The notes under the pieces were generated by a model. That model had not been told where the DNA came from and did not search any database. It saw only the letters and a list, made by a program, of their open reading frames with translations. DNA of 33,184 bases from an uncultured Erysipelotrichaceae bacterium. GTDB taxonomy: Bacteria; Bacillota_I; Bacilli_A; Erysipelotrichales; Erysipelotrichaceae. Shown piece by piece: positions 704-29,748 of this stretch. The DNA is taken from contig CADABS010000036.1 of the NCBI GenBank assembly GCA_902786245.1, positions 1 to 33,184 of the forward strand, given 5' to 3'. Position numbers and translations under genes: made by a program. Numbering within the stretch: position 1 is the first letter of the stretch; each line of letters begins with the position of its first letter.

Positions 704-719
704 GAAGGATGGCTTTTTT
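694..719 (+). terminator. Rho-independent terminator after the GNAT gene
   Basis: AGCCATC pairs with GATGGCT (7 bp, 7-nt loop), then six T. The hairpin includes the GNAT stop codon. On the minus strand the same hairpin is followed by TCGC and six T, so it may also stop the convergent AraC-family gene. Confidence 0.8.
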
Positions 720-1590
720 ACACGGATGACTGATTGCGGGTGATTGCGCTCTTCCGGTATTTCAGCGGACTTGTGCCGACGATGGAGGTGAAGCGGGTAC
801 TGAAGGAAGAATCATCGGAAAAGCCGGTTCCCAGCGCAATCTCATGAACGGTCTTATCCGTGACTTCCAGATATTCTTTAGCTTTGGTAATGCGCATGTT
901 GAGAATGTAATTATACGGAGTTGTGCCGAGATACATCCGGAACAGGCGCATGTAATATGCCTTGGACATGGCCGCAATCTCCAGCAGCTCCGACAGATCG
1001 ATATGCCGGGTATAGTTTTCCCGGATGTATTCCGCGGTTTTCATGATCAGCTGCTGATTGCCTGACTGCCCGGCTGTTTTCTCAAGGATCATATCCGTCA
1101 GGATCCGGTGGATTAGTACGCTCTGCCGCAGCGTTGCCTCAGCGGAGGAGGGACCTTCCAGATTTGTCAGCAGCGTATCAAAGCGGTTCTGCAGAATCGT
1201 GTTCTTGGCATGCAGGACCGTATTTCTGCCATCCGGGATCAGCAGGCTTTCCAGTGCCATGACGCCGCTGCCGTCAATATGGGCCCAGTAATGCGTCCAG
1301 CGGCCGGTCTGCGGGGCAGTGCTGTAGGACTGCGGTGTCCGGCAGTTGATGAACAGGATCTCTCCCGGTCTGAGTTCCTGGGTCAGATCGTTCTGGGAAA
1401 TCAGACCGCATCCGTCAATGGTATAGAAAAGCAGATAGCTGTCTTTGTAATCGCGGATCGTATTGAAATTCTGACGGGCATAGAATATACCGGCTTCTGT
1501 ACAGAAATACGGCTGTTTCAGTGCGAATTCATTCGGTGTCGTACGCAGCCACAGGCTGCCCCGTTCAATATCCAGTTCATAGGTAAGCAT
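718..1590 (-). CDS. AraC family transcriptional regulator, probable rhamnose regulator
   Basis: A 290-residue two-domain activator. Residues about 15-140 look like the cupin-type sugar-binding domain (a DLTQELRPGEILFINCRTP segment and a YWAHIDG stretch). Residues about 185-285 form the double helix-turn-helix of the AraC/XylS family, with the closing signature IALGTGFSDDSSFSTRF followed by G-T-S-P-L-K-Y-R. It starts at 1590, with GGAGA 8-9 nt upstream on the minus strand. It diverges from rhaB across 132 bp, so the likely role is L-rhamnose-responsive activation of rhaB-rhaD-isomerase, like RhaS/RhaR; the position supports this but the sequence alone does not prove the effector. The stop codon overlaps the T run of the facing GNAT terminator. 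Confidence 0.9.
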   Translation of the reverse strand: MLTYELDIERGSLWLRTTPNEFALKQPYFCTEAGIFYARQNFNTIRDYKDSYLLFYTIDGCGLISQNDLTQELRPGEILFINCRTPQSYSTAPQTGRWTHYWAHIDGSGVMALESLLIPDGRNTVLHAKNTILQNRFDTLLTNLEGPSSAEATLRQSVLIHRILTDMILEKTAGQSGNQQLIMKTAEYIRENYTRHIDLSELLEIAAMSKAYYMRLFRMYLGTTPYNYILNMRITKAKEYLEVTDKTVHEIALGTGFSDDSSFSTRFTSIVGTSPLKYRKSAITRNQSSV

Positions 1591-1722
1591 GGCTTTCTCC
1601 AGTAGACTTTTTCAAAAAAACTAAAGACTTATCTACATGGAATTATAGTATATCCGCGGTTATTCTAGTGTTGTAAAGCAAAACAAAATATAAAGAATAT
1701 TTCAAAAAAGGAGGCTGTGGCC
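1591..1722. promoter_or_regulatory. Divergent control region between AraC-type regulator and rhaB
   Basis: An AT-rich 132-bp intergenic region. On the minus strand a perfect TATAAT (plus-strand 1642-1647) would start the regulator transcript near 1635. On the plus strand TTGTAA at 1671-1676 precedes an A-rich stretch, but no -10 at usual spacing leaves room for the AGGAGG (1709-1714) of rhaB, so the rhaB promoter may be activator-dependent. A CCGCGG palindrome lies centrally at 1653-1658. I could not define an AraC half-site pair. Confidence 0.4.
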
Positions 1723-3147
1723 ATGACAAAGTACCATCTTGCGGTGGATATCGGTGCTTCTTCGGGAAGACATATCATCGGATGGCTGGAAGACGGCAGG
1801 ATCAGACTGAAGGAAATATACCGTTTTGAAAACAGACTGATGGAAAAAGACGGACATCTTTGCTGGGATATCGACGGACTCTTCGGACATATTCTGGCCG
1901 GGATCCGGGAATGCGGAAAACAGGGAATCATTCCCGAAACAATGGGCATCGATACCTGGGCGGTAGACTATGTACTGATCGGAAGAGACGGACAGAGGAT
2001 CGGCGATGCGGCTGCCTACCGCGATGAAAGAACCAACGGCATCCGGGAAGAACTGGAAAACAGCGGTGTGCTGCGGTTTGCGGATCACTATTCTTCGACC
2101 GGGATCCAGTATCAGAAATTCAATACGGTCTATCAGCTGCTGGCACTGAAGAAGGAACATCCCGAACAGCTGGAACAGGCTGAACGGATGCTGATGATAC
2201 CGGATTATCTGCAGTATCTGCTGACCGGGAAAGCGGTACAGGAATATACCAATGCTACGACAACGGCGCTGGTCAATGCGAAGACGAAAGACTGGGATGA
2301 TGAACTGATTGAAAAACTCGGTCTTCCCCGGCGCATATTCAATGAAATAGCCATGCCGGGTACGGTCCTGGGCGGATTCACAGAAGAGGTACAGGAAAAG
2401 ACCGGAATGAATATCAGGGTCATTCTGCCGGCGACCCATGATACGGGCAGTGCCTATCTGGCAGTACCTGCCAGAGATGACAATGCCATATTCCTTTCTT
2501 CCGGGACATGGTCTCTGCTGGGAGTGGAAAACAGCGAACCGGTCACCAGTGAAGAAAGCATGCGCAATAACTTCACCAACGAAGGCGGCTATGCATACCG
2601 CTTCCGCTATCTCAAGAATATTATGGGTCTCTGGATGATACAGAATATCCGCAGAGAACTGAAGGATGAACAGGGCAGTCTGCCTTCCTTCCCGCAGCTG
2701 ATCAAAGAAGCAGAGAAATGCAGTGATTTCAATGCACTGGTGGATGTGGATGACGACCGTTTCCTGGCTCCGGATTCAATGATCGAAGAAGTCAGAAAAG
2801 CATGTGCGGATACGGATCAGAAAATTCCCCAGACAACCGGAGAAATCATGCGGACCGTATATATCTCCCTGGCGGATGACTACCGCCGGGCAATCGATGC
2901 GCTGGAAAAGATCAACGGCAGAAAGTATACATCAATCAATATTGTCGGCGGCGGCAGCCAGGATATGTATCTGAATCAGCTGACCGCGGATGCGGCAGGT
3001 CTGCCGGTATATGCGGGACCGACAGAAGGAACCGCACTGGGCAATCTGCTGGTGCAGATGCTGGAAGAAAAAGAAATCGCGTCGCTTCAGGACGCCAGAA
3101 ATATGATCAGAGAAAGCTTTGAAATCAGGGAGGTAAAGCCGAGATGA
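1723..3147 (+). CDS. rhaB: Rhamnulokinase
   Basis: Phosphorylates L-rhamnulose to L-rhamnulose 1-phosphate with ATP (EC 2.7.1.5), the second step of L-rhamnose catabolism. It is 474 residues long, normal for the FGGY kinase family. The N-terminal ATPase motif DIGASSGRHIIGW (residues 9-21) is the RhaB version of the FGGY phosphate-1 loop. D-T-W-A-V-D-Y and the adenosine-side loop GGGSQ (409-413) followed by ...GPTEGTALGN are also typical. The start at 1723 is preferred: AGGAGG at 1709-1714 is 8 nt upstream, whereas the in-frame GTG at 1717 would leave only 2 nt. Its stop codon overlaps the rhaD start (ATGA), so the two are translationally coupled. First gene of a three-gene rhamnose operon. 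Confidence 0.96.
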   Translation: MTKYHLAVDIGASSGRHIIGWLEDGRIRLKEIYRFENRLMEKDGHLCWDIDGLFGHILAGIRECGKQGIIPETMGIDTWAVDYVLIGRDGQRIGDAAAYRDERTNGIREELENSGVLRFADHYSSTGIQYQKFNTVYQLLALKKEHPEQLEQAERMLMIPDYLQYLLTGKAVQEYTNATTTALVNAKTKDWDDELIEKLGLPRRIFNEIAMPGTVLGGFTEEVQEKTGMNIRVILPATHDTGSAYLAVPARDDNAIFLSSGTWSLLGVENSEPVTSEESMRNNFTNEGGYAYRFRYLKNIMGLWMIQNIRRELKDEQGSLPSFPQLIKEAEKCSDFNALVDVDDDRFLAPDSMIEEVRKACADTDQKIPQTTGEIMRTVYISLADDYRRAIDALEKINGRKYTSINIVGGGSQDMYLNQLTADAAGLPVYAGPTEGTALGNLLVQMLEEKEIASLQDARNMIRESFEIREVKPR

Positions 3148-3980
3148 GTATCATGGATGTAAAGTTTGTCAGCGGATTCGTCCGCATGTGCAATGACGGA
3201 TGGCTGCAGGGATGGCATGAAAGAAACGGAGGAAATCTTTCCTACCGCATTAAGCCGGAAGAACTGGAAGAAGTCAGAGAATACTTCCATGAACCGGGTG
3301 AATGGAAACCGATCGGAACAAGTGTTCCGGATCTTGCCGGGGAATACTTCATGGTCACCGGATCAGGCAAATATTTCCGCAATGTCATTCTGGATCCGGA
3401 AGATACATCCTGCATCATCGAACTGGATGAAAAGGGTGAAAACTACCGGCTTCTGTGGGGGCTGTGCAACGGCGGCAGGCCGACCAGCGAACTGCCCAGC
3501 CATCTGATGAACCATGAGGTCAAAAAGAAGGCAAGCAACGGCACGCACAGAGTCATCTATCATGCCCATACGACCAATGTCATCGCACTGACATTCGTAC
3601 TGCCTCTGCAGGATGAAGTATTCACCAGAGAACTCTGGGAAATGGCAACGGAATGTCCGGTCGTCTTCCCGGACGGAGTCGGGGTTGTCGGATGGATGGT
3701 TCCGGGCGGAAGAGATATCGCCGTTGCGACAAGCGAACTGATGAAGAAATATGATGTTGCGATCTGGGCGCATCACGGCATGTTTGCCAGCGGCCCGGAT
3801 TTCGATCTGACATTCGGACTGATGCATACAGTTGAAAAATCAGCAGAGATCCTGGTCAAGACACTGAGCATGTCCCCGGTCAAACTGCAGACGATCACAC
3901 CGCAGAATTTCAGAGATCTGGCAAAGGATTTCAATGTCACCCTGCCGGAGCAGTTCTTATATGAAAAGGAAGGTAAATGA
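3144..3980 (+). CDS. rhaD: Rhamnulose-1-phosphate aldolase
   Basis: Class II (zinc) aldolase that cleaves L-rhamnulose 1-phosphate to dihydroxyacetone phosphate and L-lactaldehyde (EC 4.1.2.19). Its 278 residues are close to the 274 of the E. coli enzyme. The metal ligands are in place: H140 and H142 in the Y-H-A-H-T-T-N motif and H211 in the AHHGMFASGPD motif. E116, in the G-R-P-T-S-E segment, matches the catalytic glutamate. The gene overlaps the rhaB stop by ATGA with AGGGAGG upstream, and its own stop overlaps or abuts the next gene. The L-lactaldehyde produced needs a reductase or dehydrogenase that is not in this locus. Confidence 0.96.
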   Translation: MSIMDVKFVSGFVRMCNDGWLQGWHERNGGNLSYRIKPEELEEVREYFHEPGEWKPIGTSVPDLAGEYFMVTGSGKYFRNVILDPEDTSCIIELDEKGENYRLLWGLCNGGRPTSELPSHLMNHEVKKKASNGTHRVIYHAHTTNVIALTFVLPLQDEVFTRELWEMATECPVVFPDGVGVVGWMVPGGRDIAVATSELMKKYDVAIWAHHGMFASGPDFDLTFGLMHTVEKSAEILVKTLSMSPVKLQTITPQNFRDLAKDFNVTLPEQFLYEKEGK

Positions 3981-3982
3981 AC

Positions 3983-5401
3983 ATGTTAGTCAATACAAAA
4001 GCAAGAGTCGGTGTATTCTCCATTGCCCTTGGCGCCTATCTGCCGCAGTTCCCCTCCCTCGTACCCGAATTTGAGGGACAGTATAAAGAATTCAAGAAGA
4101 TGATTCCGGATACCGTTGAACTGATTGACGGCGGCATCGTTACGACCAAGGAACAGTCGCAGGCAGCCGGAGATCAGTTCCGGGCTGCAGATGTCGATCT
4201 GGTGATTATGCAGCTGCTGACCTATGCGACCAGCTACAATATGCTGCCGGCGGTCAGAGACCTGAATGTTCCGGTTGTTCTGGTCAACGTACAGAAACTG
4301 AAAGCACCTGATTATGCCCATACGGACAATGCCAAATGGCTGGGTGAACTGTATGCATGCGGTGCGGTCGGTGAAATGGTCGCGGATCTGGAAAGAGCAG
4401 GCAAGCGCCATGCGGTCATCACCGGTGTCGTTGAAGGCGGCGATCCCCAGGTACAGGCGGAAATCGAAGACTGGTGCAGAGCAGCCCAGGTCAGAAGAAG
4501 ATTCCGCGATACGAATCTTGCTCAGATCGGCAGACCGTATCCGGGCATGATGGATCTGTATATCGATGAAACCAATCTGTATCACAGAATGTTCGTCTAC
4601 ACAAAGCAGTTTGACTGGGAAAAGATGTGGGCCATTGCGGATGATATCACGGATGAAGAAATGATCCGTGCCAAGGCTCAGGATATCCTGGATACATTTG
4701 ATATCGAAGGCGGCGGAACGATTGAGAAAGTCTGGGATATGGCGAAGTATGTCGTTGCCTTTGAAAGATGGGTCAAAGACGAGCAGCTCGGCTTTGTCGC
4801 TTCGCATTATGACGGATTCTCCCAGGGAATCGCGGGCAAGCTGGACAGTATGCTCATACCGGCATTCTCAATGCTGATCAAGCAGGGTACCGCCTGCGCG
4901 GTCGAAGGCGATATCAAGGTTGCCATGGCGATGTCGATCCTGAAGACGATTGCCGGCACCGGTCAGCTCTCGGAAATGTATTCCATCGATTTCAATGAGG
5001 ATATATGCATCATCGGCCACAGCGGCAGCGGCGATGCGGATATTTCCGAAAAGAAACCGACGATGAAGATCGTCGATGTATTTCATGGCAAGACAGGCGG
5101 CGGCTATCTGACCCAGTTCTATCCGCCGGCAGGACCTGTTACCTATCTGGCAATTACTCAGGACAGGGACGGACATTTCAAGTTCGTCGCTGCAGAAGGC
5201 GTCAACGAAGAAGGTCCGATCTTCACCTTCGGCGATACAAATATGCGCACCCGCTTCACCTGCGGTGCCCGTGAGTTTGTCAACCGCTGGTCGGAAGCTG
5301 GTCCGACGCATCATATGGCAGCTGCCGTCGGCAGACATATCGATACGATCGTCAAGGTAGCCAAGATCTTCGATATTCCGGTTGAGATCATTACCAGATA
5401 A
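3983..5401 (+). CDS. L-arabinose/L-fucose isomerase family protein in the rhamnose operon
   Basis: A 472-residue aldose-ketose isomerase of the AraA/FucI fold, unrelated to the TIM-barrel RhaA. Counted from the ATG at 3983, candidate metal and catalytic residues are E308 (V-E-G-D-I-K), E331 (L-S-E-M-Y), H346 (I-I-G-H-S-G) and H443/H444 (P-T-H-H-M). They fit the Glu-Glu-His-His set known for AraA (E306, E333, H350, H450 in E. coli), so an active enzyme is expected. It is third in the operon after rhaB and rhaD, which lacks any rhaA, so by context it should turn L-rhamnose into L-rhamnulose. An earlier ATG at 3977 overlaps the rhaD stop as ATGA but lies only 3 nt from GGAAGG; 3983 has 9-nt spacing. 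The fold is certain, the substrate inferred. Confidence 0.85.
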   Translation: MLVNTKARVGVFSIALGAYLPQFPSLVPEFEGQYKEFKKMIPDTVELIDGGIVTTKEQSQAAGDQFRAADVDLVIMQLLTYATSYNMLPAVRDLNVPVVLVNVQKLKAPDYAHTDNAKWLGELYACGAVGEMVADLERAGKRHAVITGVVEGGDPQVQAEIEDWCRAAQVRRRFRDTNLAQIGRPYPGMMDLYIDETNLYHRMFVYTKQFDWEKMWAIADDITDEEMIRAKAQDILDTFDIEGGGTIEKVWDMAKYVVAFERWVKDEQLGFVASHYDGFSQGIAGKLDSMLIPAFSMLIKQGTACAVEGDIKVAMAMSILKTIAGTGQLSEMYSIDFNEDICIIGHSGSGDADISEKKPTMKIVDVFHGKTGGGYLTQFYPPAGPVTYLAITQDRDGHFKFVAAEGVNEEGPIFTFGDTNMRTRFTCGAREFVNRWSEAGPTHHMAAAVGRHIDTIVKVAKIFDIPVEIITR

Positions 5402-5407
5402 GACAGA

Positions 5408-5448
5408 GCATAAGAAAACAGGATGGCCTTCATCCTGTTTTCTTATGC
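5408..5448. terminator. Bidirectional terminator, 18-bp perfect hairpin
   Basis: An uninterrupted 18-bp stem (starting GCATAAGAAAACAGGATG) with a 5-nt GCCTT loop. The A-rich outer part of each arm gives a T-rich 3' side on both strands. It separates the plus-strand rhamnose operon from the minus-strand hybrid kinase, whose TGA stop (5430-5432) falls at the edge of the loop. Confidence 0.8.
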
Positions 5449-6485
5449 ATGTTTTCCGCTTCCGCGATCAGGCTTTCCAGTGTTTCGAACAGATCATCCG
5501 GATCTACCGGCTTGGACAGATGTGCATTGAGTCCTGCCTGCAGGCTTCTCTCAACATCTTCATCAAATGCATTGGCGGTCAGCGCTATGATCGGAATGCG
5601 TTTTGCGTCTTCCCGCTCAAGGGCACGGATCGTGCTTCCGGCAGTCAGTCCGTCCATGACAGGCATGCGCATGTCCATCAGAATTGCGTCATAGTATCCG
5701 GCCGGATGGGACTCGAACATATCTACGGCGATCTTTCCGTTTTCAGCCAGTTCGGTCTGGATCTGCCGGGTACCGAGTATCATTATCATGATTTCTGCAT
5801 TGATCTGCACGTCTTCTGCCAGCAGGATCCGTCTTCCCTGCAGATCTGCTTTTGCAGGTCTGGATGCGCTTCTCTTGCGCAGGGCCTTGCTGTATTCATC
5901 CAGAACTGAAGAAATGAACAGAGGCTTGGAGATAAAGGAATCCACACCGGCTTCCTGCGCCTCTTCGACGATGTCATCCCACTTGTAGGCCGTCAGAATG
6001 ATGATCGCAGATTCTCTGCCGCAGATGGAACGGATCATCCGGGCAGTTTCAATACCGTCGATGTCAGGCATTTTCCAGTCGATAAGGATCAGATCATACG
6101 GATTTCTGCGGGCATGGCGGAGTCTGACCATTTCTGCGGCTTTTCTGCCTGATTCCGCTGTTTCCGGCGCAATGCCGTTCTTTTTCAGAATCAGACGCGC
6201 ATGTTCCAGAGCAATCGGATCATCGTCGACGATCAGTACATTCAGTTCATGCAGGTTGATCTGTGCCGGCGCATCCCAGCGTTGGTTTGTATTATCCAGC
6301 GTCAGCACAACCGTAAAGACGGAGCCTTTGCCTTTTTCGCTTTCAGCCTTGATGGTGCCGTTCATCATTTCAACCAGGTTTTTGGTGATTGCCATACCGA
6401 GGCCGGAACTTCCGTATTTATTCGTTGAAGAAGAATCTTCCTGCGTGAAAGCGTCAAACAGTTTCGGCAGGAATTCCGCATCCAT
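5430..6485 (-). CDS. Hybrid histidine kinase, C-terminal part (end of ATPase plus two receivers)
   Basis: A 351-residue frame that continues the kinase after the TAA. It holds the F and G2 boxes of the ATPase domain (residues 9-35, ending S-S-G-L-G-M-A-I). REC1 (about 80-203) has the D-D-D acidic pocket at 87-89, phospho-acceptor D136 and K187. REC2 (about 218-343) has acidic E224/D225, phospho-acceptor D271 and K325. Both receivers look chemically complete. No HPt or DNA-binding domain follows, so output would go through a separate phosphotransfer protein or regulator. The first ATG (6485) is only five codons past the stop and lacks a clear Shine-Dalgarno sequence, so independent translation would be weak. 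Confidence 0.7.
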   Translation of the reverse strand: MDAEFLPKLFDAFTQEDSSSTNKYGSSGLGMAITKNLVEMMNGTIKAESEKGKGSVFTVVLTLDNTNQRWDAPAQINLHELNVLIVDDDPIALEHARLILKKNGIAPETAESGRKAAEMVRLRHARRNPYDLILIDWKMPDIDGIETARMIRSICGRESAIIILTAYKWDDIVEEAQEAGVDSFISKPLFISSVLDEYSKALRKRSASRPAKADLQGRRILLAEDVQINAEIMIMILGTRQIQTELAENGKIAVDMFESHPAGYYDAILMDMRMPVMDGLTAGSTIRALEREDAKRIPIIALTANAFDEDVERSLQAGLNAHLSKPVDPDDLFETLESLIAEAENMHKKTG

Positions 6486-6500
6486 TCCGATACCGGTATC

Positions 6501-8522
6501 TTATACCGTGAACTTCATGGTTGTCTTATTGTCAAACTGTGCTGTCTTTTCGATATTGAACCAGATACTGCCGTCTTTCGGCGTAAATTTGACCGCATTG
6601 CCGAGAATATTGATCAGCACCTGCCGCAGTTTCATATCATCGCCGATATAGTAGTCATCCACATTGCCGGTAATCGAGCAGTGATAATGCAGACCTTTTT
6701 CGGAACACTGGTCGCTGATGATCGTATTGATCTTTTCAATCAGCTGCGAGAAGGAGAATTCTTCGCTCTTCAGACTCATACGGCCGGATTCAATGCGCGA
6801 CATATCGAGAATGTCATTGATGATATCCAGCAGATGATGTGCGGAAGAACCGATTTTTTCAAGATGTTCTCTGGTCTGCGGGGACAGATTCTCATCTGCA
6901 AGAGCGATATTGTCAAGACCGATGATCGCATTCATCGGTGTCCGTATTTCATGGCTCATGTTGGAAAGGAATGCCGTCTTTGCCTTGTTTGCTTCCTCTG
7001 CCGCATGGAGTGCATCGCTGAGTACCTGATTCCTGTTCAGATTTTCTTTTGTCTCTCTGTCGATGTCGGAGAAACTGATGCCGACTGCGTGCGGTGTGCT
7101 GTCTTCAGCATCCTGTCTGACAGCAGCCATCCGCAGAAGTTCGTAGCGCTCTTTCTCTCCGTCGGTGTACAGATAACGGAAGGAAATGACAGGATCGGTT
7201 TCCAGGGCGGATCTGACAGCTTCCGGCTGAATGAACTGCAGGAACTGACTGCGGTTCGCTTCGGCTACATACGTTTCGGCAAATCTGGTAAATGTTTCAA
7301 GATACGGGAAGCGGGTGCCTTCCTGTATTTTCTGGTTATTGCCTGTTTCTGCCCGGTAGCATATGCCGCTGTCTTCATCCAGGTCAACGTAATAGACGCT
7401 GCGGTAGTCAGAGGCCAGAGCGGTGATCATGTCATCCTGCTGCGCTCTCTGTTTTTCCTGTTCCAGAAGCTGTTCCTGCAGAACGATGCGCTGCTCAAGT
7501 TCTTCCCGCTTGATTCTGTTTTCTGTTTCGGATTTTTCTTTTTCCAGCAGAAGACGGGCATTCCTGCGGGTCTGCCGGATCATGATGGAGAACATGGCAA
7601 TCAGCACAGCTGCGGTGAGCACGGACATGATCATGGAGCGGGTAAGGATACTGCGGCTGATTGAACTGATCTGTTCGCTGATGATGCTTTCCCGGATCAG
7701 ATAGGTAAGCATCCAGTCCGTTCCTTCGATCGGAACATAATACATCGTTTCCTGAATGTCATTGTAAATAAAGGATATCGTTCCGGTATTCCCCTCGGCA
7801 AAGTCACTGTTCATCTGTTCTTTTGAACCGGTTTTGAACTGGGCATGGTCCATGGCCGCAAGGAGGTTGTCTTCACTGGCCAGACCGCCGAGGATGACAT
7901 CCGTCAATGAGGTTCCGTCGGAAGTATAGAGATTGCAGAAAGTCGTATTATTCCCGTCTGACTGCAGGGAAACACCTTCCAGCATCCGGTGCATATCGAT
8001 TTCCATGAAGCAGACGATCAGATTTCTGCCTTCATATTCAAGCGGACCTACCGGAATGGCGATAATGACGCTTTTTCTGTCCGGATACGTCATGACGGAT
8101 ATCTCCGCAGAAGTTATGTTTCTGTAATCAAAAGAGTATTCCCCGATATCATTGCGGATGCCCGAGGATGTATAGATCAGACCTTCTGTGTCCACAAAAG
8201 CAAATTTATCAAGCTCATAGAGTTTTTTCATCTGGGACTGATAATTCTGCAGATGTTCTTCATCGCTGAGATCGGTCTCATCCATCAGTTCAACAGCAGT
8301 CTGCAGATTGCGGACATTGCTGCGGAGATTGGATGCGACGACCTGCTCCCGCCGGCCTGCAAGTTCATTCAGATAAAGAAGACTGACGGAATGAACTGCG
8401 TCCTCTGTCGATCTGATTGCGCTCCGGCCGATCAGTACGGTACTTAAAACAAGCAGTATAATCACAGCAATACTGACTGTATATGCAATACGTCTCTGTC
8501 TGTTATCTTTTACGGAATCCAT
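6501..8522 (-). CDS. Hybrid histidine kinase, N-terminal part (sensor, HisKA, partial ATPase)
   Basis: A 673-residue product as the sequence stands. Residues 12-32 are TM1 and about 294-315 TM2; the roughly 260 residues between are an extracytoplasmic sensor resembling double-Cache domains (for example FAFVDTEGLIY at 107-117). A charged coiled coil follows (about 318-363), then a PAS-like region (about 364-490). HisKA has the phospho-acceptor H524 in NMSHEIRTPMN. The ATPase N box (D-D-M-K-L-R-Q-V-L-I-N-I-L-G-N-A) is present, but the protein ends at M-K-F-T-V before the G1 box. It starts at 8522 with AAGGTGG upstream, divergent from fruK. The ligand is unknown. Alone it lacks half the nucleotide lid and should not autophosphorylate. 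Confidence 0.7.
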   Translation of the reverse strand: MDSVKDNRQRRIAYTVSIAVIILLVLSTVLIGRSAIRSTEDAVHSVSLLYLNELAGRREQVVASNLRSNVRNLQTAVELMDETDLSDEEHLQNYQSQMKKLYELDKFAFVDTEGLIYTSSGIRNDIGEYSFDYRNITSAEISVMTYPDRKSVIIAIPVGPLEYEGRNLIVCFMEIDMHRMLEGVSLQSDGNNTTFCNLYTSDGTSLTDVILGGLASEDNLLAAMDHAQFKTGSKEQMNSDFAEGNTGTISFIYNDIQETMYYVPIEGTDWMLTYLIRESIISEQISSISRSILTRSMIMSVLTAAVLIAMFSIMIRQTRRNARLLLEKEKSETENRIKREELEQRIVLQEQLLEQEKQRAQQDDMITALASDYRSVYYVDLDEDSGICYRAETGNNQKIQEGTRFPYLETFTRFAETYVAEANRSQFLQFIQPEAVRSALETDPVISFRYLYTDGEKERYELLRMAAVRQDAEDSTPHAVGISFSDIDRETKENLNRNQVLSDALHAAEEANKAKTAFLSNMSHEIRTPMNAIIGLDNIALADENLSPQTREHLEKIGSSAHHLLDIINDILDMSRIESGRMSLKSEEFSFSQLIEKINTIISDQCSEKGLHYHCSITGNVDDYYIGDDMKLRQVLINILGNAVKFTPKDGSIWFNIEKTAQFDNKTTMKFTV

Positions 8523-23101: not shown

Positions 23102-24517
23102 TTACAGCGGCATGATGCCGAAGATGATGGCTACGATCATGCACAGAAAGGAGAAGCCCCATACGTACATGAAGCTTGCCTTGATGTGGTCTTTGATATC
23201 GACTTCTGCAAGACCAGTGCCGAGCAGAGTAGCCGGAACCATCGGGCTGATGAATGTAGCGCAGTTGCGGCATACGACCATTGCGACAGCGATCGGCAGT
23301 GCTTCAACACCGAAGGCCTGACCGATACCGATGACGACCGGCAGCATTCCGTAGAAGTAGGAGTCTGTATCAAATGCCAGAGCAAGAGGTACAGAGAGGA
23401 TACCGATGACCAGCGGCAGATGTCTTCCGAGAGCTGCAGGAAGAACTGCGGATACAAGACCTGCCAGGCAGCGGACAACAGACGGAATTGCGTCTGCAGG
23501 CAGTTCCATTGTCTTTGCGGAAATGACTGCACCGTCTGCACCGAGGCTGGATGTCAGAATACCCATCAGGACAGCAGCGCCCATCAGAGTGGAACACATC
23601 ATCAGAGCCGGACCGGCATGCAGGTTGATGATCTTTTTGTGCATCTTGGCAGTGAAGCCATAGTTGACAAACAGAGCAAGTGCAACACCGATCATGAACG
23701 GATAGTAGCTCGGGAATACATCCCAGATCAGCATTGCGATAACGCCGATCGTGAGCAGAATGTTGAACAGGAACAGCTGCGGACGTGCCAGTTCCGGATT
23801 GCTTGCCGGAACGGAGGCGTCATCGCTTTCTTCTTCAACGACTTCGCCTTCTTCAGCAGCAAGTTTTCCATTCAGGCCTGCACCGCGTGCTTTTTCCTGT
23901 ACGCCTGTGAAGTATGCATGAACCAGAGACAGGATAATACCGCAGATCTGGATCGGCAGAATTGTCTGCCAGAGGCTGCCTGCTTCAATACCGAGTACGG
24001 AAGCAGCACGCATCGTCGGACCTGCCCAGGGCATCAGGTTCAGAACACCCATGGCAAGGACTGCGATACGGAGCAGACTTGTCTTGCGCATATGCATGCG
24101 CTTGAATACCGGCAGCATCGCCGGGACGACGATACAGAATGTAGAAGCGCCGCCGCCGTCGAGATGGCCGACCAGAGCGATGATGCATGTGACGATGCAG
24201 ACACCGATGACGTTGTCACCGACGAATGTCATCAGCTTGCCGATGATGACATCGAACATGCCCGCATCTGTCATGATGCCGAAGTAGAGTACGGAGAAGA
24301 CGAACAGGGCAGCAGTAGGTCCGGTACTGTTGAAGCCTGCCTTGATCATCGATGCAAGGTTGTCAAAGGTGAATCTTCCGCCGATGACAAGAACCAGTGC
24401 GAGAATTGTCGGCCATACGATAAATGCGATAGCCGGCTGCGTTTTACTCTTGAACAGTGTTACAACGATCGCGACGATCGTCAGAAGTCCAAGAATACCA
24501 ACGACTGTTGAACTCAT
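23102..24517 (-). CDS. CitMHS family citrate transporter
   Basis: A 471-residue secondary transporter with about 12 hydrophobic segments and a central acidic hydrophilic loop (about residues 213-247). It resembles the CitMHS family (citrate-metal:H+ symporters such as B. subtilis CitM/CitH). The segment G-H-L-D-G-G-G-A-S-T-F-C-I-V-V-P-A and the late C-R-N-C-A-T-F-I-S-P-M-V-P-A-T are typical reentrant-type motifs of this family. It is the last gene of the operon with the citrate lyase subunits, which strongly supports citrate (or metal-citrate) import. AAGGGG precedes the ATG. The metal preference (Mg, Ca or other) cannot be read from sequence. Confidence 0.9.
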   Translation of the reverse strand: MSSTVVGILGLLTIVAIVVTLFKSKTQPAIAFIVWPTILALVLVIGGRFTFDNLASMIKAGFNSTGPTAALFVFSVLYFGIMTDAGMFDVIIGKLMTFVGDNVIGVCIVTCIIALVGHLDGGGASTFCIVVPAMLPVFKRMHMRKTSLLRIAVLAMGVLNLMPWAGPTMRAASVLGIEAGSLWQTILPIQICGIILSLVHAYFTGVQEKARGAGLNGKLAAEEGEVVEEESDDASVPASNPELARPQLFLFNILLTIGVIAMLIWDVFPSYYPFMIGVALALFVNYGFTAKMHKKIINLHAGPALMMCSTLMGAAVLMGILTSSLGADGAVISAKTMELPADAIPSVVRCLAGLVSAVLPAALGRHLPLVIGILSVPLALAFDTDSYFYGMLPVVIGIGQAFGVEALPIAVAMVVCRNCATFISPMVPATLLGTGLAEVDIKDHIKASFMYVWGFSFLCMIVAIIFGIMPL

Positions 24518-24549
24518 GTTTTTTTATCCCCTTTCAGATTTTATGAATA

Positions 24550-26100
24550 TCAGAGCGGTTTTACCTGACGGACAACGTCCATGATCGTTCCGTCACGCGC
24601 TTCGATGATTCCTACGACACGGTCTTCGAATTCAACCGGATCCGGAGTGCCTGTAATGGAGTAAGCGATGTCTCTGAGTTCTTCGATTGTCTTCAGAGGT
24701 ACGCAGTCCGCTTTCTGCAGAGCTTCCAGCAGGTCAGGTCTGTTCGGATTGACTGCTACACCGTAGTCGGTAACGACGATATCGACGCTTTCACCCGGTG
24801 TGGTGACTGTTGTTACATCTGTGCAGATTGCCGGAATACGGCCCTGCAGCAGCGGGCAGATGACGATCGTGCACTTGGCACCCTGGGCTGTGTCAGGATG
24901 GCCGCCCTGTGCGCCGGTGATAATGCCGTCGGATCCTACAACAACGTTGCAGTTGAAGTGAACGTCGACTTCCAGAGATGCCAGAATGACGTAGTCGAGT
25001 TTATTGACGAATGCGCCTTTGTTGAAAGGATTCGCATATTCGCTTGCCGTGATGTAGTAGTGATTCGGGTTTTCGATGTTGGTAACCGCATCGAGATCGA
25101 ATGCCTGTGTATCCATCAGGACATTGACCAGTCCCTTTTCAAGCAGGTCGCACATCGGCTTTGTCAGACCGCCGATGCCGAATCCCATCTTGACGCCTCT
25201 TTCTTCCATGATCCGTGTCAGAGAGATCGTGGAAGCGATGGAAGCGCCGCCGACACCGGTCTGATAGGAGAATCCGTCCTTGAAGTACGGTGTGTTGACG
25301 ACGACCTGTGTGCAGTATTCCGCCATCATCAGCTTGCGCTGGTCCGTGGTCGGCTTGGCTGCGCCGGTTGCGATCTTTTCCGGAATGCCGATGGCGTCAA
25401 CGACGCATACATAGTCGACATTCGTCATGGAAATCTGGGCCGGATAGTTCGGGAACGGAACCAGGCAGTCGGTAATTGCGACGACATAGTCTGCGCAGTC
25501 CGCATCGACGGCAGAGTAGCTGATGACACCGCAGTTTGTCTTTCCGCCGGTACCGCTCAGGTTGCCGTATTCATCAGAAGTCGGAGCGCCGATGAAGGCG
25601 ATGTCGACTTTGGTTTCACCGGAGAATACGGAACGGACACGGCCGCCGTGACTTCTCATGATTGCCAGTCCCTGCAGCTTACCGTTGGAAATTGCTTCAC
25701 CGATCTTGCCGCGGACACCGGATGCTTCGATGCTGGTGATCGTTCCGTCTTCGATCATCGGAACGATTGCTTCATGGGCTTTGCCCAGGGAAGTCGCTGC
25801 CAGCTTGATGTTCTTGAGACCCATGTTGTGGATTTCGTTCATGACCATGTTGACGATCAGGTCGCCTTCACGGAAATGATGGTGGAAGCTGACGGTCATG
25901 CCGTCATGCGCATTGCACTTCTCCAGTGCTTCACGGATGCTCTGCACGATTTTGCTGTGCTGGTTGTCCATGACCGGGTGTACCGTCGGCGCGGAACGCT
26001 GGAACGGAACGCCTTCTTTATAGTTGTTGCCCTGGAAGGGCTCTTTTCCCGTCAGACTGAGGATCTCTTCAGGGATTTCACGTCCTACTGCATTTTTCAT
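24550..26100 (-). CDS. citF: Citrate lyase alpha subunit (citrate:acetyl-ACP transferase)
   Basis: Swaps the acetyl group on the acyl carrier protein for citrate, forming citryl-ACP and acetate (EC 2.8.3.10). It is 516 residues long, close to the usual 500-520. The N-terminal N-A-V-G-R-E-I-P-E and the segment S-F-H-H-H-F-R-E-G-D are characteristic. So are F-I-G-A-P-T-S-D-E-Y-G-N, G-V-G-G-A-S and the late G-A-Q-G-G-H-P-D-T-A motif, which place it in the CoA-transferase fold. It starts 2 nt after the citE stop with AAGGGGG as ribosome binding site inside citE, so it is tightly coupled. Cytosolic; part of the D-E-F complex. Confidence 0.97.
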   Translation of the reverse strand: MKNAVGREIPEEILSLTGKEPFQGNNYKEGVPFQRSAPTVHPVMDNQHSKIVQSIREALEKCNAHDGMTVSFHHHFREGDLIVNMVMNEIHNMGLKNIKLAATSLGKAHEAIVPMIEDGTITSIEASGVRGKIGEAISNGKLQGLAIMRSHGGRVRSVFSGETKVDIAFIGAPTSDEYGNLSGTGGKTNCGVISYSAVDADCADYVVAITDCLVPFPNYPAQISMTNVDYVCVVDAIGIPEKIATGAAKPTTDQRKLMMAEYCTQVVVNTPYFKDGFSYQTGVGGASIASTISLTRIMEERGVKMGFGIGGLTKPMCDLLEKGLVNVLMDTQAFDLDAVTNIENPNHYYITASEYANPFNKGAFVNKLDYVILASLEVDVHFNCNVVVGSDGIITGAQGGHPDTAQGAKCTIVICPLLQGRIPAICTDVTTVTTPGESVDIVVTDYGVAVNPNRPDLLEALQKADCVPLKTIEELRDIAYSITGTPDPVEFEDRVVGIIEARDGTIMDVVRQVKPL

Positions 26101-26102
26101 GA

Positions 26103-27002
26103 TTACAGATCCCCCTTATAAACACCGGATGCCTTGGCAAGTGCCAGTGTACGCTTAGCGCCGTCATAGAAGGCGATATCGATCATCTTGCCGTCAACGG
26201 TGAAGACGCCGATGCCCTGTGCTTTCTTCGTATCGATTTCACGGACGACCTTTTCCGCGAAGATAATGTCTTTTTCAGTCGGTGTGAAGATCTCATGTAC
26301 GATCGGAATCTGGCGCGGGTTAATGATGGATTTTCCGTCAAAGCCCATCGTATGGATCGTTTCGACATCGCGGCGGAAGCCGTCCATGTCTTTCAGATTT
26401 GTGTAGACAGTGTCAAAGCACTGAACGCCGGCAGCTCTTGCCGCAATGATCATGTGCTGGCGGGCACCCATCAGCTCGACACCGGTGCCGGAGATTGTTG
26501 TCTGCAGGTCCTTTGTATAGTCGCCGCCGGAAAGAGCGATACCGAACAGTCTTTCCGAAGCAGAGCAGACTTCAAATGCATTCATGACGCCTTTGGCAGA
26601 TTCAAGCGCAGCCATGATCAGTGTGCTTCCGTCTTCTCTGCCGAATTCTTTTTCTGCTGCGATGACAGCATTTTCAACTCTGCGGACATCCTCTGCGGTT
26701 TCTGTTTTCGGGATACGGATCGCATCGCAGCCGCCGGCAACTGCACAGCGGATATCTTCTTCCCAAAGATCCGTGTCCAGACCGTTGATTCTGACTACGC
26801 GCTCAACACCGCGGTAATCGATTTCCTGCAGTGCATGATACAGGGAGTAGCGGGCTGCGTCTTTTTCACGTTCGGCGACCGCATCTTCCAGATCGAGCAT
26901 GATGGAGTCAGGTGCATAGATATAAGGGTCTTTGATGAGACCAGGTTTCTGGCAGTTCAGAAACATCATGCTTCTGCGGAGACGCTTCAGATTCGGATTC
27001 AT
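26103..27002 (-). CDS. citE: Citrate lyase beta subunit (citryl-ACP lyase)
   Basis: Cleaves citryl-ACP to oxaloacetate and acetyl-ACP (EC 4.1.3.34). It is 299 residues with the TIM-barrel fold of the HpcH/HpaI-CitE family. L-R-R-S-M-M-F starts the barrel, D-S-I-M-L-D-L-E-D-A-V supplies Mg-binding acids, and R-I-P-K-T-E and A-A-L-E-S-A-K-G contribute the second metal/substrate strand. G-K-S-I-I-N-P-R-Q-I-P is the closing motif. The start at 27002 overlaps the citD stop as ATGA, with GGGGAGGAG about 8 nt upstream. The frame is open up to 27062, but that part lies inside citD. Confidence 0.97.
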   Translation of the reverse strand: MNPNLKRLRRSMMFLNCQKPGLIKDPYIYAPDSIMLDLEDAVAEREKDAARYSLYHALQEIDYRGVERVVRINGLDTDLWEEDIRCAVAGGCDAIRIPKTETAEDVRRVENAVIAAEKEFGREDGSTLIMAALESAKGVMNAFEVCSASERLFGIALSGGDYTKDLQTTISGTGVELMGARQHMIIAARAAGVQCFDTVYTNLKDMDGFRRDVETIHTMGFDGKSIINPRQIPIVHEIFTPTEKDIIFAEKVVREIDTKKAQGIGVFTVDGKMIDIAFYDGAKRTLALAKASGVYKGDL

Positions 27003-27298
27003 TTGATTGCTCCTCCCCACGGCAGATTGTTTGTGATGCCGTTGCTGCGGTAAACAGCGCATTCGACGCGCGCCTTGATCGTGCAGTCGAGTGCTCCCTT
27101 ATCGACAACCGTGACTTTTGCGTCCGTAACGTCCAGATTCGCAAGTGTTTCATTGATGACTTTGCGGATCTGTTTTCCGAACTGGCGGATTACAGCGCTC
27201 TCGAGATCGAGTTCGACCGTACCGCTGCCGGGTTCGACAGTTACCATGCAGTCACTGGACTCGAGGGTTCCTGCTACCGCTGCCTTTTTGATTTCCAT
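26999..27298 (-). CDS. citD: Citrate lyase gamma subunit (acyl carrier protein)
   Basis: A 99-residue acyl carrier of the citrate lyase complex. The prosthetic group 2'-(5''-phosphoribosyl)-3'-dephospho-CoA is attached to a conserved serine near residue 14; here S14 lies in G-T-L-E-S-S-D (10-16). The rest (V-T-V-E-P-G, L-E-S-A-V-I-R-Q-F-G, D-K-G-A-L-D-C-T-I-K-A-R-V-E-C-A) fits CitD closely. The start at 27298 is fixed by AAAGGAG about 10 nt upstream and by the family N-terminus; the frame extends upstream to 27487 but that stretch is AT-rich and lies in the divergent control region. First gene of the minus-strand citrate operon. Confidence 0.96.
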   Translation of the reverse strand: MEIKKAAVAGTLESSDCMVTVEPGSGTVELDLESAVIRQFGKQIRKVINETLANLDVTDAKVTVVDKGALDCTIKARVECAVYRSNGITNNLPWGGAIK

Positions 27299-27466
27299 AA
27301 TGGCAATTTCTCCTTTCCTATATAGATAATGTGCCTTACATGTACAATTTAGCAGATAAAGATATAACTTAAAAATACGAATAATACCATAAAGATATAA
27401 TAAAATACTTATACATCTGAAAATGATGGTACTATCAGTATAGCGCTTACATTCGGGAGGTGGCAT
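27299..27466. promoter_or_regulatory. Divergent citrate control region with a 12-bp direct repeat
   Basis: A 168-bp strongly AT-rich region between the divergent citD and LysR-type genes. ATAAAGATATAA occurs exactly twice, at 27356-27367 and 27389-27400, 33 bp apart (about three helical turns) on the same strand. This is the best candidate for a regulator binding pair. I could not settle either promoter: TTGTAC/TATATA on the minus strand is well spaced but too close to the citD ribosome binding site. Confidence 0.5.
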
Positions 27467-28384
27467 ATGAATTTCAGACAGGCACAATATATCTGTACGA
27501 TTGCTGCAGAGGGCAGCATTACGGCGGCTGCGAGGAAACTGAGTGTCTCTCAGCCATCATTGAGCCAGATGGTGCGGCAGATCGAAAGCGAAACCGGTGT
27601 AGCACTGTTTGACCGTTCGTCTCTGCCGATGCAGCTGACATATGCCGGTGAGAAATATGTCGAATGTGCACAGACCATCATCACCGCTTCCAGGAGACTT
27701 GAAAACCAGCTCCAGGATATACGGAAGGAAAACAGCGGACGGCTGCGGGTCGGCATCAGCGTACAGCGTTCCATGCGCATACTGCCGTATGTCATTCCCG
27801 TATTTACTTCGCGCTATCCGGATGTCTCTCTGGAAATTACCGAAGCGGGAAGTGTGCGGATCGAAGAGATGCTGCGGACCGGCGATGTCGATCTGATGTT
27901 TGCCGCAACCGATACGACCAGTGCGGAATTCGACTATCAGCTGATCGAGAAGGAAATCATCGGGATCCTGGCCGGCTCATCCTCCGGTCTGGTCGATGTA
28001 TTCCGCAACGGCACTTCGCTTTCCGTGGAAGATACTGCGGCAGAGAAATATGTATATCTGAAGCCAGGACACAGCGTCCGCAGCATTCAGGATTATCTGT
28101 TCAGGAAATATGCGCTTGAGCCGAAGGTGATCCTGGAAACGGATTCGCTGGAAGTTGCCAGAAGAGTGACAGTTTCATCCGGTGCGTGCATGCTCTGCCC
28201 GAATGTGTATTATGATGATGCTATGATTGATGCAGGCGGCGTGTTCTATCCGCTGAAAAAGTATGAGAACAAAAGGCACTATTATGCCTGTACAAGAAAA
28301 AGCGAGGTACTGCCCCGCTTTGCCCAGGATATGATTGAAATGGTCCGTTCGGTGCTGCGCAATGAACTGGAATCTGAAGACTGA
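27467..28384 (+). CDS. LysR family transcriptional regulator, probable citrate regulator
   Basis: A 305-residue LysR-type regulator. The N-terminal winged helix-turn-helix (about 3-60) reads I-A-A-E-G-S-I-T-A-A-A-R-K-L-S-V-S-Q-P-S-L-S. A linker helix follows, then a periplasmic-binding-protein-like effector domain from about residue 88 (G-R-L-R-V-G-I-S). GGGAGGTGG is the ribosome binding site. It is transcribed divergently from citD-citE-citF-transporter and followed by citXG after 11 nt, so it should control one or both citrate units. Citrate as inducer is inferred from position. Most characterised citrate systems use CitA/CitB two-component or GntR-type CitI/CitO regulators, so a LysR regulator is less usual. 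Confidence 0.93.
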   Translation: MNFRQAQYICTIAAEGSITAAARKLSVSQPSLSQMVRQIESETGVALFDRSSLPMQLTYAGEKYVECAQTIITASRRLENQLQDIRKENSGRLRVGISVQRSMRILPYVIPVFTSRYPDVSLEITEAGSVRIEEMLRTGDVDLMFAATDTTSAEFDYQLIEKEIIGILAGSSSGLVDVFRNGTSLSVEDTAAEKYVYLKPGHSVRSIQDYLFRKYALEPKVILETDSLEVARRVTVSSGACMLCPNVYYDDAMIDAGGVFYPLKKYENKRHYYACTRKSEVLPRFAQDMIEMVRSVLRNELESED

Positions 28385-28395
28385 GAGGAACCTTT

Positions 28396-29748
28396 ATGGA
28401 AAAGATACAGCAGGTTGATCTGGCAATGATGCTGGACGCAAGAGAAAGACGGTCTTTCCGGCAGCGGGAACTGCTGGAACAGTATCAGCGTCCCCTGATC
28501 AGTTTTTCCATGAATATCGCCGGTCCCGTGAAGAATACACCGCTGATCAGAAGAGGTTTCACGGAAGGACGCCGGCAGCTGCTGGAAAGGATCCGGGAAG
28601 CAGGCGGAAAGATTCTTTTTCAGGAAGAAACGGATGAAGCGACCGGATGCGAAGGCATGTACATCACGGATCTGGATGAGCAGAAAATCAAGCAGCTGAC
28701 CTGCGCAGTTGAAGAAGAAACTGCAGCCGGGCGGCTGTATGACATGGATGTCATCGATACCTGCGGAAACAAACTGGAGCGTCCTGCGCCGCGCAGATGT
28801 CTGATCTGCGGAAAACCGGCCAAAGAATGCGCCCGCAGCCGGACGCATTCCGTCGCTGAACTGCAGGAAGCGACAGGAAGAGTCCTGAAAGAATCACTGG
28901 ATCAAAGCGACCGGAACATAATTGCATCGCGCACGGTTCAGGCCCTTCTGTACGAAGTATGCGTAACACCTAAACCCGGTCTTGTCGACCGGAATGACAG
29001 CGGCAGCCATGCGGATATGGATATCTATACATTCATGGCCAGCGCTTCTGCCCTCTGGCCGTATTTCGCATCCTGCGCAGAGACCGGTATGGAATCGGCA
29101 GAGCTGCCCGCCCCGGAAACATTGAAAAGACTCAGAGATCCGGGAAAAGAAGCAGAGCGCAGAATGTACAGAATGACAGCCGGAATCAATACCCATAAAG
29201 GTGCCATCTTCTCCATGGGAATCCTCTGTGCCGCTTTCGGCAGACTGGCTCCCCAGGACCGGTATGATCCTGATCAGGTACTGGCTGAAGCAGCCGCGAT
29301 GACTGCCGGCATCACGGAAAGAGAACTGCATGGCGTCAATGCGGAAACAGCCGTGACCGCCGGACAGAAGATCTATGCGGAATACGGCATCGCCGGTATC
29401 CGGGGCGAAGCGGAAGCAGGCTTCCCCGCGGTCAGAGAACACGGACTGCCGGTGCTGGAAGAAGGACTGAAATCGGAAAAAAGCAGGGATGAAGCAGGCA
29501 GAGCTGCGCTTCTTGCCATCATCGCATCTACACCGGATACCAATATGATCCACAGAGGCGGCATTGCGCTGCAGAAGAAAACAGCTGCCCAGGCCGCAGA
29601 AATACTGAAGAATAATGCATATCCGGATGCGGATACGATGGCACAGCTGAATGCGGAATATATCAATGAACGCCTGTCACCCGGCGGCAGCGCAGATCTT
29701 CTGGCGGTGTGCTGGCTGATGCATTTTCTCAAGGAGGAACGGGCATAA
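28396..29748 (+). CDS. citXG: Bifunctional CitXG: holo-citrate lyase synthase and triphosphoribosyl-dephospho-CoA synthase
   Basis: A 450-residue fusion of two cofactor enzymes. Residues 1 to about 165 are CitX, which transfers the phosphoribosyl-dephospho-CoA group to apo-CitD (EC 2.7.7.61). It has R-L-Y-D-M-D-V-I-D (113-121) and R-C-L-I-C-G-K-P-A-K-E-C-A-R-S-R-T-H-S (134-152). Residues about 172-450 are CitG, which makes the triphosphoribosyl precursor from ATP and dephospho-CoA (EC 2.4.2.52), with L-L-Y-E-V-C-V-T-P-K-P-G-L-V-D-R, G-I-N-T-H-K-G-A-I-F-S and H-G-V-N-A-E-T-A. AGAGGAA is the ribosome binding site. Its TAA overlaps the citC ATG (TAATG). Such CitXG fusions are known in other bacteria. 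Confidence 0.95.
   Translation: MEKIQQVDLAMMLDARERRSFRQRELLEQYQRPLISFSMNIAGPVKNTPLIRRGFTEGRRQLLERIREAGGKILFQEETDEATGCEGMYITDLDEQKIKQLTCAVEEETAAGRLYDMDVIDTCGNKLERPAPRRCLICGKPAKECARSRTHSVAELQEATGRVLKESLDQSDRNIIASRTVQALLYEVCVTPKPGLVDRNDSGSHADMDIYTFMASASALWPYFASCAETGMESAELPAPETLKRLRDPGKEAERRMYRMTAGINTHKGAIFSMGILCAAFGRLAPQDRYDPDQVLAEAAAMTAGITERELHGVNAETAVTAGQKIYAEYGIAGIRGEAEAGFPAVREHGLPVLEEGLKSEKSRDEAGRAALLAIIASTPDTNMIHRGGIALQKKTAAQAAEILKNNAYPDADTMAQLNAEYINERLSPGGSADLLAVCWLMHFLKEERA

Follow-up and report, generated by a model that had tools for sequence, protein, structure and literature searches.

Which enzyme takes the first step of L-rhamnose breakdown when an operon carries the genes of the next two steps, rhaB and rhaD, and no rhaA? 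This question is raised by a 33,184-nucleotide stretch of DNA (hereafter the window) from an uncultured Erysipelotrichaceae bacterium, contig CADABS010000036.1 of assembly GCA_902786245.1, in which rhaB and rhaD are followed by a third gene whose product we call X. The main reconstruction of rhamnose utilization names, in the part of it available, two types of isomerase, RhaA and RhaI (PMC3870299). A sequence-only reading of the locus had proposed a non-orthologous replacement, in which an isomerase of unrelated fold does the work of RhaA. The replacement is supported by exclusion between X and rhaA, by linkage of X to rhaB and rhaD and by the way in which X and RhaA replace one another next to a single family of kinases; the reaction itself we infer. 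From this comparative genomics we predict that X is, with high likelihood, the L-rhamnose isomerase of the operon and replaces RhaA, and the best reading is that X represents an AraA/FucI-type L-rhamnose isomerase, a third, non-homologous solution for this step.

The open reading frame (ORF) of X is listed as 3977-5401 (474 amino acids), and a start at 3983 gives 472 amino acids. The latter is likelier because the N-terminal residues MLV are at least 90% conserved among 57 aligned X members, are the earliest possible start in nine of nine loci with ORFs listed, and lie downstream of an AGGAAGG-like site whose spacing, judged by eye, suits 3983 better than 3977. Numbering from this start gives exactly the residues E308, E331, H346 and H443/H444 to which the sequence-only reading had drawn attention. 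Profile searches against Pfam and NCBIfam placed X above no named-family cut-off. For example, it scored 26.6 bits against Fucose_iso_C (gathering cut-off 29.3), 24.6 against Arabinose_Iso_C (25), 42.7 against the AraA equivalog NF002795 (622) and 47.8 against the sulfoquinovose isomerase SftI model NF048012 (700). Neither the RhaA model TIGR01748 nor the RhaI model TIGR02635 matched X at E<=0.001. A phmmer search of PDB sequences returned no meaningful match (two at E 0.74-0.76) and a profile of X returned a weak match to AraA (E 0.16), so a structure model of X was needed.

An AlphaFold2 model was built from an alignment of the window protein with its counterparts from 56 of the 80 related loci described below (57 sequences), with a mean predicted local distance difference test score (pLDDT) of 74.9 and a predicted template modelling (TM) score of 0.73. 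Every one of the 41 Foldseek matches to the PDB at E<=0.001 was AraA, FucI or D-arabinose isomerase, the best being AraA (E 6.2e-24). VIA-align superimposed 274 residues in the central and C-terminal regions of the model on AraA with a Z score of 26.0 and a root mean square deviation of 2.6, and superimposed the model on FucI with a Z score of about 22-23. Over the whole chain the TM score reaches only about 0.5, and how the N-terminal part packs is uncertain, with residues 177-207 below a pLDDT of 50. RhaA does not occur among the 50 structural matches listed by Foldseek and VIA, an absence that by itself proves nothing about a triosephosphate isomerase (TIM) barrel fold. As modelled, X has the AraA/FucI-type fold that had been proposed for it. 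Residues E308, E331, H346, H443 and H444 are invariant in all 57 sequences, and the set E308, E331, H346 and H443/H444 lines up with E. coli AraA and three paralogues at positions that we take to be the catalytic residues of AraA. The Glu-Glu-His-His set is thus present as first described, and these residues constitute the predicted metal-binding and catalytic set of X.

A scan of genome contigs with this single protein found at least 595 stretches, at least 591 of which encode X relatives, and the best 80 were analysed as loci. Their X proteins are 88-93% identical to that of the window and come from records of Erysipelotrichaceae, Lachnospiraceae, Oscillospiraceae, Blautia, Gemmiger and others. 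RhaB and RhaD are both encoded within 2 kb of X on the same strand in 57 of the 80 loci, in the order RhaB-X-RhaD (44 loci), RhaB-RhaD-X (10) or another (3), and a further four loci have RhaB alone and two RhaD alone. The genes of the next two rhamnose steps are therefore co-located with X in the window and in these 57 loci, and a linkage originally seen in one operon belongs to a widespread family. None of the 80 loci contains RhaA. Apart from X, RhaB and RhaD, three recurring ORF clusters of these loci could be named from a scan of one member each. Two of them, present in 19 and 10 loci, encode AraC-type regulators; the third, present in 11 loci, encodes an iron-containing alcohol dehydrogenase that among NCBIfam models matches lactaldehyde reductase best, at 287 bits, below the cut-off of 523. 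Neighbours picked by eye, which do not amount to a count, include a rhamnose mutarotase (L055), an alpha-L-rhamnosidase (L082) and a GH88-family hydrolase (L084).

We also surveyed 315 genomes of the order and 250 Lachnospiraceae genomes drawn from the family of Blautia sp. Marseille-P3087. A draw of 145 genomes spread evenly over the window's family, in which a close full-length X occurred only in the window's own genome (G000) beside distant homologues, had made X look rare, but X proved to be present in 25 of the 315 genomes of the order, 24 of them in the window's genus. X at >=79% identity occurs in 21 of the 250 Lachnospiraceae genomes, and all 21 encode RhaB somewhere in the genome, compared with 97 of the 229 that lack X. 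Genomes were scored as RhaB-positive at E<=1e-40 in the order survey and at E<=1e-60 in the Lachnospiraceae sample, which gave 72 of 315 and 118 of 250, and rhaA was called with TIGR01748.

The genome of the window, a 2.75 Mb draft of 102 contigs that is 96.5% complete and in which the window is contig C36, has no match at E<=0.001 to rhaA, to RhaI_grampos or to the FucI domain PF07882; the lack of rhaA noted for the operon thus extends to the draft genome. X and RhaB occur together in 23 genomes of the order. Among RhaB-positive genomes of the order rhaA is present in 0 of 23 with X versus 43 of 49 without it (Fisher test 1.2e-13, ignoring shared descent). For Lachnospiraceae, 80 of the 118 RhaB-positive genomes were tested (75 in list order plus the five remaining with X; 38 were left out), and rhaA is present in 2 of 21 with X versus 46 of 59 without it (Fisher test 4e-8, again ignoring shared descent). 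Across 62 genomes with X, comprising 24 of the order and 38 of the 80 loci, rhaA was found in one, Parablautia intestinalis. X thus appears to stand in for other L-rhamnose isomerases, with the exception of three genomes, and the proposed replacement of RhaA is accompanied by mutual exclusion in two lineages. The same counts bear on the idea that rhaA was simply missed through assembly gaps in metagenome bins and that the replacement is only apparent. The 102 contigs of the window's genome, and the many relatives that are metagenome-assembled genomes, would favour such gaps, but the difference between 0 of 23 and 43 of 49 arises at broadly similar completeness and X often occupies the operon slot, which makes this explanation extremely improbable.

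A search with RhaI_grampos, the rhizobial RhaI model being outside it, gave no match above cut-off in 74 genomes, namely 24 other X-bearing genomes of the order, 31 further genomes with X and 19 RhaB-positive genomes with neither isomerase. The only weak matches are three, all in genomes that carry X (G348, G388, G463). These results weigh on the proposal that X is accessory and that L-rhamnulose is made by a different enzyme that has escaped recognition, for instance a diverged isomerase of the TIM-barrel type. Such an enzyme would fit the 19 genomes with neither isomerase and the distant X paralogues that live alongside RhaA in some rhamnose loci, and the RhaI negatives come from RhaI_grampos and not from the rhizobial model. 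Nevertheless, the absence of RhaI_grampos from the 74 genomes and the absence of a second isomerase among the nameable recurring clusters of the 80 loci (four antisense-looking clusters were left unscanned) make an accessory role for X very unlikely.

The strongest evidence of the analysis that X and RhaA make the same product comes from the kinase encoded beside the isomerase. A tree of 109 RhaB sequences (quick IQ-TREE, with support from the Shimodaira-Hasegawa-like approximate likelihood ratio test only, and changes counted in both directions) requires 14 changes when X is set against all other rows, 12 of which are forced by starred branches. Labels assigned by strict adjacency (70 X and 33 RhaA, 103 rows) require 13 changes of isomerase. 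Long-branch rows were considered as the driver of this count and ruled out, since 13 changes remain without the long or odd rows L162, L169 and L141. A set of 76 rows (43 X and 33 RhaA), which drops Parablautia and the X rows whose genome had no rhaA test, likewise requires 13. For example, near RhaB rows with unlike partners are found in Blautia, where L090 and L108 adjoin X and G473 adjoins RhaA. One kinase family thus works beside either isomerase, and X and RhaA therefore likely make the same product. This exchange argues against a different substrate for X, such as L-lyxose, L-fucose or an L-mannose-like sugar, in an operon that is not primarily for L-rhamnose and whose RhaB and RhaD would also accept the resulting product. 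Enzymes of the AraA/FucI fold do take L-arabinose and L-fucose, RhaB and RhaD are somewhat promiscuous, and the named-family models do not tell which sugar X acts on. However, within the same clades RhaB adjoins X in some rows and RhaA in others, the tree requiring 13 changes, which points to one substrate, and X and RhaA are largely mutually exclusive; another primary sugar is accordingly unlikely.

Several observations weigh against X as the L-rhamnose isomerase. Neither RhaB nor RhaD is near X in 17 of the 80 loci, some of them truncated by contig ends, and two of the 25 X-bearing genomes of the order (G208 and G218) have no RhaB match. X and rhaA coexist in three genomes (Parablautia intestinalis, G367 and G506). 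Additionally, 6 of 72 RhaB-positive genomes of the order and 13 of 80 in Lachnospiraceae have neither X nor rhaA. In these 19 RhaB-positive genomes, which lack a close X and match neither RhaA nor RhaI_grampos (G355, G357, G368, G369, G387, G400, G406, G432, G433, G437, G440, G452, G465, G214, G253, G058, G114, G109, G004), the kinase may be a different one, the isomerase gene may fall into an assembly gap, or a further type of isomerase may be at work. The RhaB match exceeds the TIGR02627 cut-off in only 28 of 315 genomes of the order and 70 of 250 Lachnospiraceae, so the kinases counted may include some other than rhamnulokinases, and this could account for a share of the genomes with neither isomerase. 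Lastly, G500 and G451 carry a distant X paralogue in one cluster with RhaA. An isomerase of AraA fold encoded near rha genes does not necessarily take over from RhaA. Proximity alone is therefore no proof of function, and it is exclusion and exchange that carry the argument.

Lachnospiraceae also carry such paralogues more generally, at 28-40% identity to X, and some of them adjoin rhaM, a sugar-binding protein or an ATP-binding cassette (ABC) transporter. Fourteen sampled Lachnospiraceae genomes have a paralogue and no close X, and all eight that were tested carry rhaA (G365, G390, G403, G451, G462, G484, G500, G502). Relatives in the same identity range, sometimes in tandem, were seen at L147-L155, L183 and L195; some of these loci also contain RhaM, components of an ABC transporter or RhaA. 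The window's own genome encodes a 23% X homologue (L015, contig C64) two genes from a 3-hydroxyisobutyrate-dehydrogenase-like gene, and this homologue probably serves another sugar or sugar-acid pathway.

Conservation of X exceeds that of its operon partners, with mean identity to the window of 89.5% for X (80 loci), 54.5% for RhaB (59 loci) and 68.5% for RhaD (59 loci). Fourfold sites of X are on average only 38% identical (26-52%), which is near random. The high identity is therefore not due to horizontal transfer in recent times, and the slow evolution of X reflects selection. The contrast between X at about 90% identity and operon partners at about 55-69% is seen across distant Firmicutes (L045-L124).

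We propose that the AraC-type regulator would sense rhamnose and switch on rhaB-rhaD-X, and that X would convert L-rhamnose to L-rhamnulose by an ene-diol route like that of AraA and FucI, with a divalent metal held on E308, E331, H346 and H443 or H444. RhaB would then phosphorylate L-rhamnulose and RhaD would cleave the product to dihydroxyacetone phosphate and L-lactaldehyde. X is very probably best filed as a predicted new kind of L-rhamnose isomerase inside the AraA/FucI superfamily, and in many rhamnose-processing gut bacteria this unrelated AraA/FucI-like enzyme appears to have taken over the first step from the standard one. We also consider it likely, though with less assurance, that X represents a third class of L-rhamnose isomerase, which has an AraA/FucI fold, is structurally unrelated to the other two and in gut Firmicutes has traded places with RhaA about a dozen times, and that the wider family, including the 28-40% paralogues found in part beside RhaA, RhaM or sugar ABC transporters, consists of deoxy-sugar isomerases with rhamnose-linked roles.

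Comparison with known isomerases sets X apart from each of them. X resembles AraA (Enzyme Commission number, EC, 5.3.1.4) in its central and C-terminal fold and in the Glu-Glu-His-His set, but is only 17% identical to E. coli AraA and has RhaB and RhaD as partners, not AraB and AraD. It shares the fold of FucI (EC 5.3.1.25) and has a C-terminal PF02952 match below cut-off, yet is 472 amino acids long as opposed to about 590-605 and has no match to the FucI N-terminal domain. The SftI model NF048012 matches all 57 X members at E<=0.001 (best E 9.1e-15), but the window protein scores far below its cut-off. RhaA (EC 5.3.1.14) has in common with X the operon slot and the predicted reaction, but not a TIGR01748 match. 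RhaA is a TIM barrel, and the E. coli enzyme is reportedly related to xylose isomerase, according to a paper title. RhaI shares the predicted reaction and is, in the part of the source available, likewise an alternative to RhaA (PMC3870299); in contrast, X lacks a TIGR02635 match and RhaI_grampos is above cut-off in none of 55 X-bearing genomes tested.

The literature searched, as far as its accessible parts go (including PMC3870299, PMC6384099, PMC3557285, PMC7478625, PMC4871866 and PMC5583593, with most subscription papers, preprints and supplements outside it), does not describe an AraA/FucI-fold rhamnose isomerase. The nearest case is the Clostridium phytofermentans 'isomerase' Cphy_0584, which in the available part of that report lies in a rhamnose transporter operon and is 38-fold up on rhamnose in a species that also has RhaA (PMC3557285). 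In its arrangement it resembles some X paralogues, and by this analogy Cphy_0584 may belong to their group. A gut survey takes fucI, in the text available, to have no homologues among rhamnose-catabolising enzymes (PMC5583593). An AraA/FucI-fold rhamnose isomerase, if true, would break this premise at the level of fold, although that survey required PF07882, which X does not match. Pathway reconstructions that take RhaA or RhaI as a marker of rhamnose use would score genomes with X as incomplete or misname X, and X would explain rhamnose use without the textbook gene. X would add to the examples in which enzymes of different fold catalyse the same sugar isomerisation; its many natural swaps with RhaA next to a single kinase would lend themselves to comparison, and it would offer a new scaffold for rare-sugar isomerases.

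The features of the operon are collected in Table 1. The arrangement first described, rhaB, rhaD and a third gene with coupled or near-coupled starts and an AraC-type regulator facing them, is confirmed by the ORFs, family matches and spacing: rhaB and rhaD overlap by four bases and two bases separate the end of rhaD from position 3983. The ORF list gives a GTG start at 1717 for rhaB, and by eye the ATG in the table is preceded by an AGGAGG site. RhaB scores 482 bits on NF007925, below the cut-off of 639, and RhaD 324 bits on TIGR02624, below the cut-off of 401. RhaB of the window is closest to Erysipelotrichaceae records, some of them Solobacterium. A homologue of the regulator lies on the opposite strand upstream of RhaB at L046, L052, L053, L057, L061, L063, L064, L069 and L119. 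Aligned upstream regions of the window and nine related loci share a ACTTTTTCAAAAAAAC block and a TATxxT-like element, which may be a putative regulator site and promoter.

Table 1. Coordinates of the predicted rhamnose operon and its flanking features in the window
Feature	Position	Strand	Evidence or remark
AraC-family regulator	718..1590	-	divergent from operon; PF12833 (HTH_18), PF00165 (HTH_AraC) and PF02311 (AraC_binding) above cut-off
Conserved intergenic block, ACTTTTTCAAAAAAAC plus downstream part; candidate regulator site	1606..1640	.	10 upstream regions aligned
TATxxT-like element, candidate promoter	1661-1666		downstream of ACTTTTTCAAAAAAAC block; 10 upstream regions aligned
rhaB, L-rhamnulokinase	1723..3147	+	TIGR02627, 573 bits against cut-off 528
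rhaD, L-rhamnulose-1-phosphate aldolase	3144..3980	+	NF002963, 325 bits against cut-off 170
X, predicted AraA/FucI-fold L-rhamnose isomerase, 472 amino acids	3983..5401	+	alternative start 3977
Inverted repeat directly after X, candidate operon terminator	5417..5440	+	read by eye

Two further features of the window were observed. A hybrid histidine kinase with HisKA, HATPase and two receiver domains (5430-8522, minus strand) is divided into two ORFs by an in-frame TAA near 6501, inside the ATPase domain, and represents either a pseudogene, a sequencing error or a split gene. Citrate fermentation genes occupy 23102-29748 and encode a citrate transporter-like protein, CitF, a CitE-like lyase, a LysR regulator and a fused CitX-CitG.
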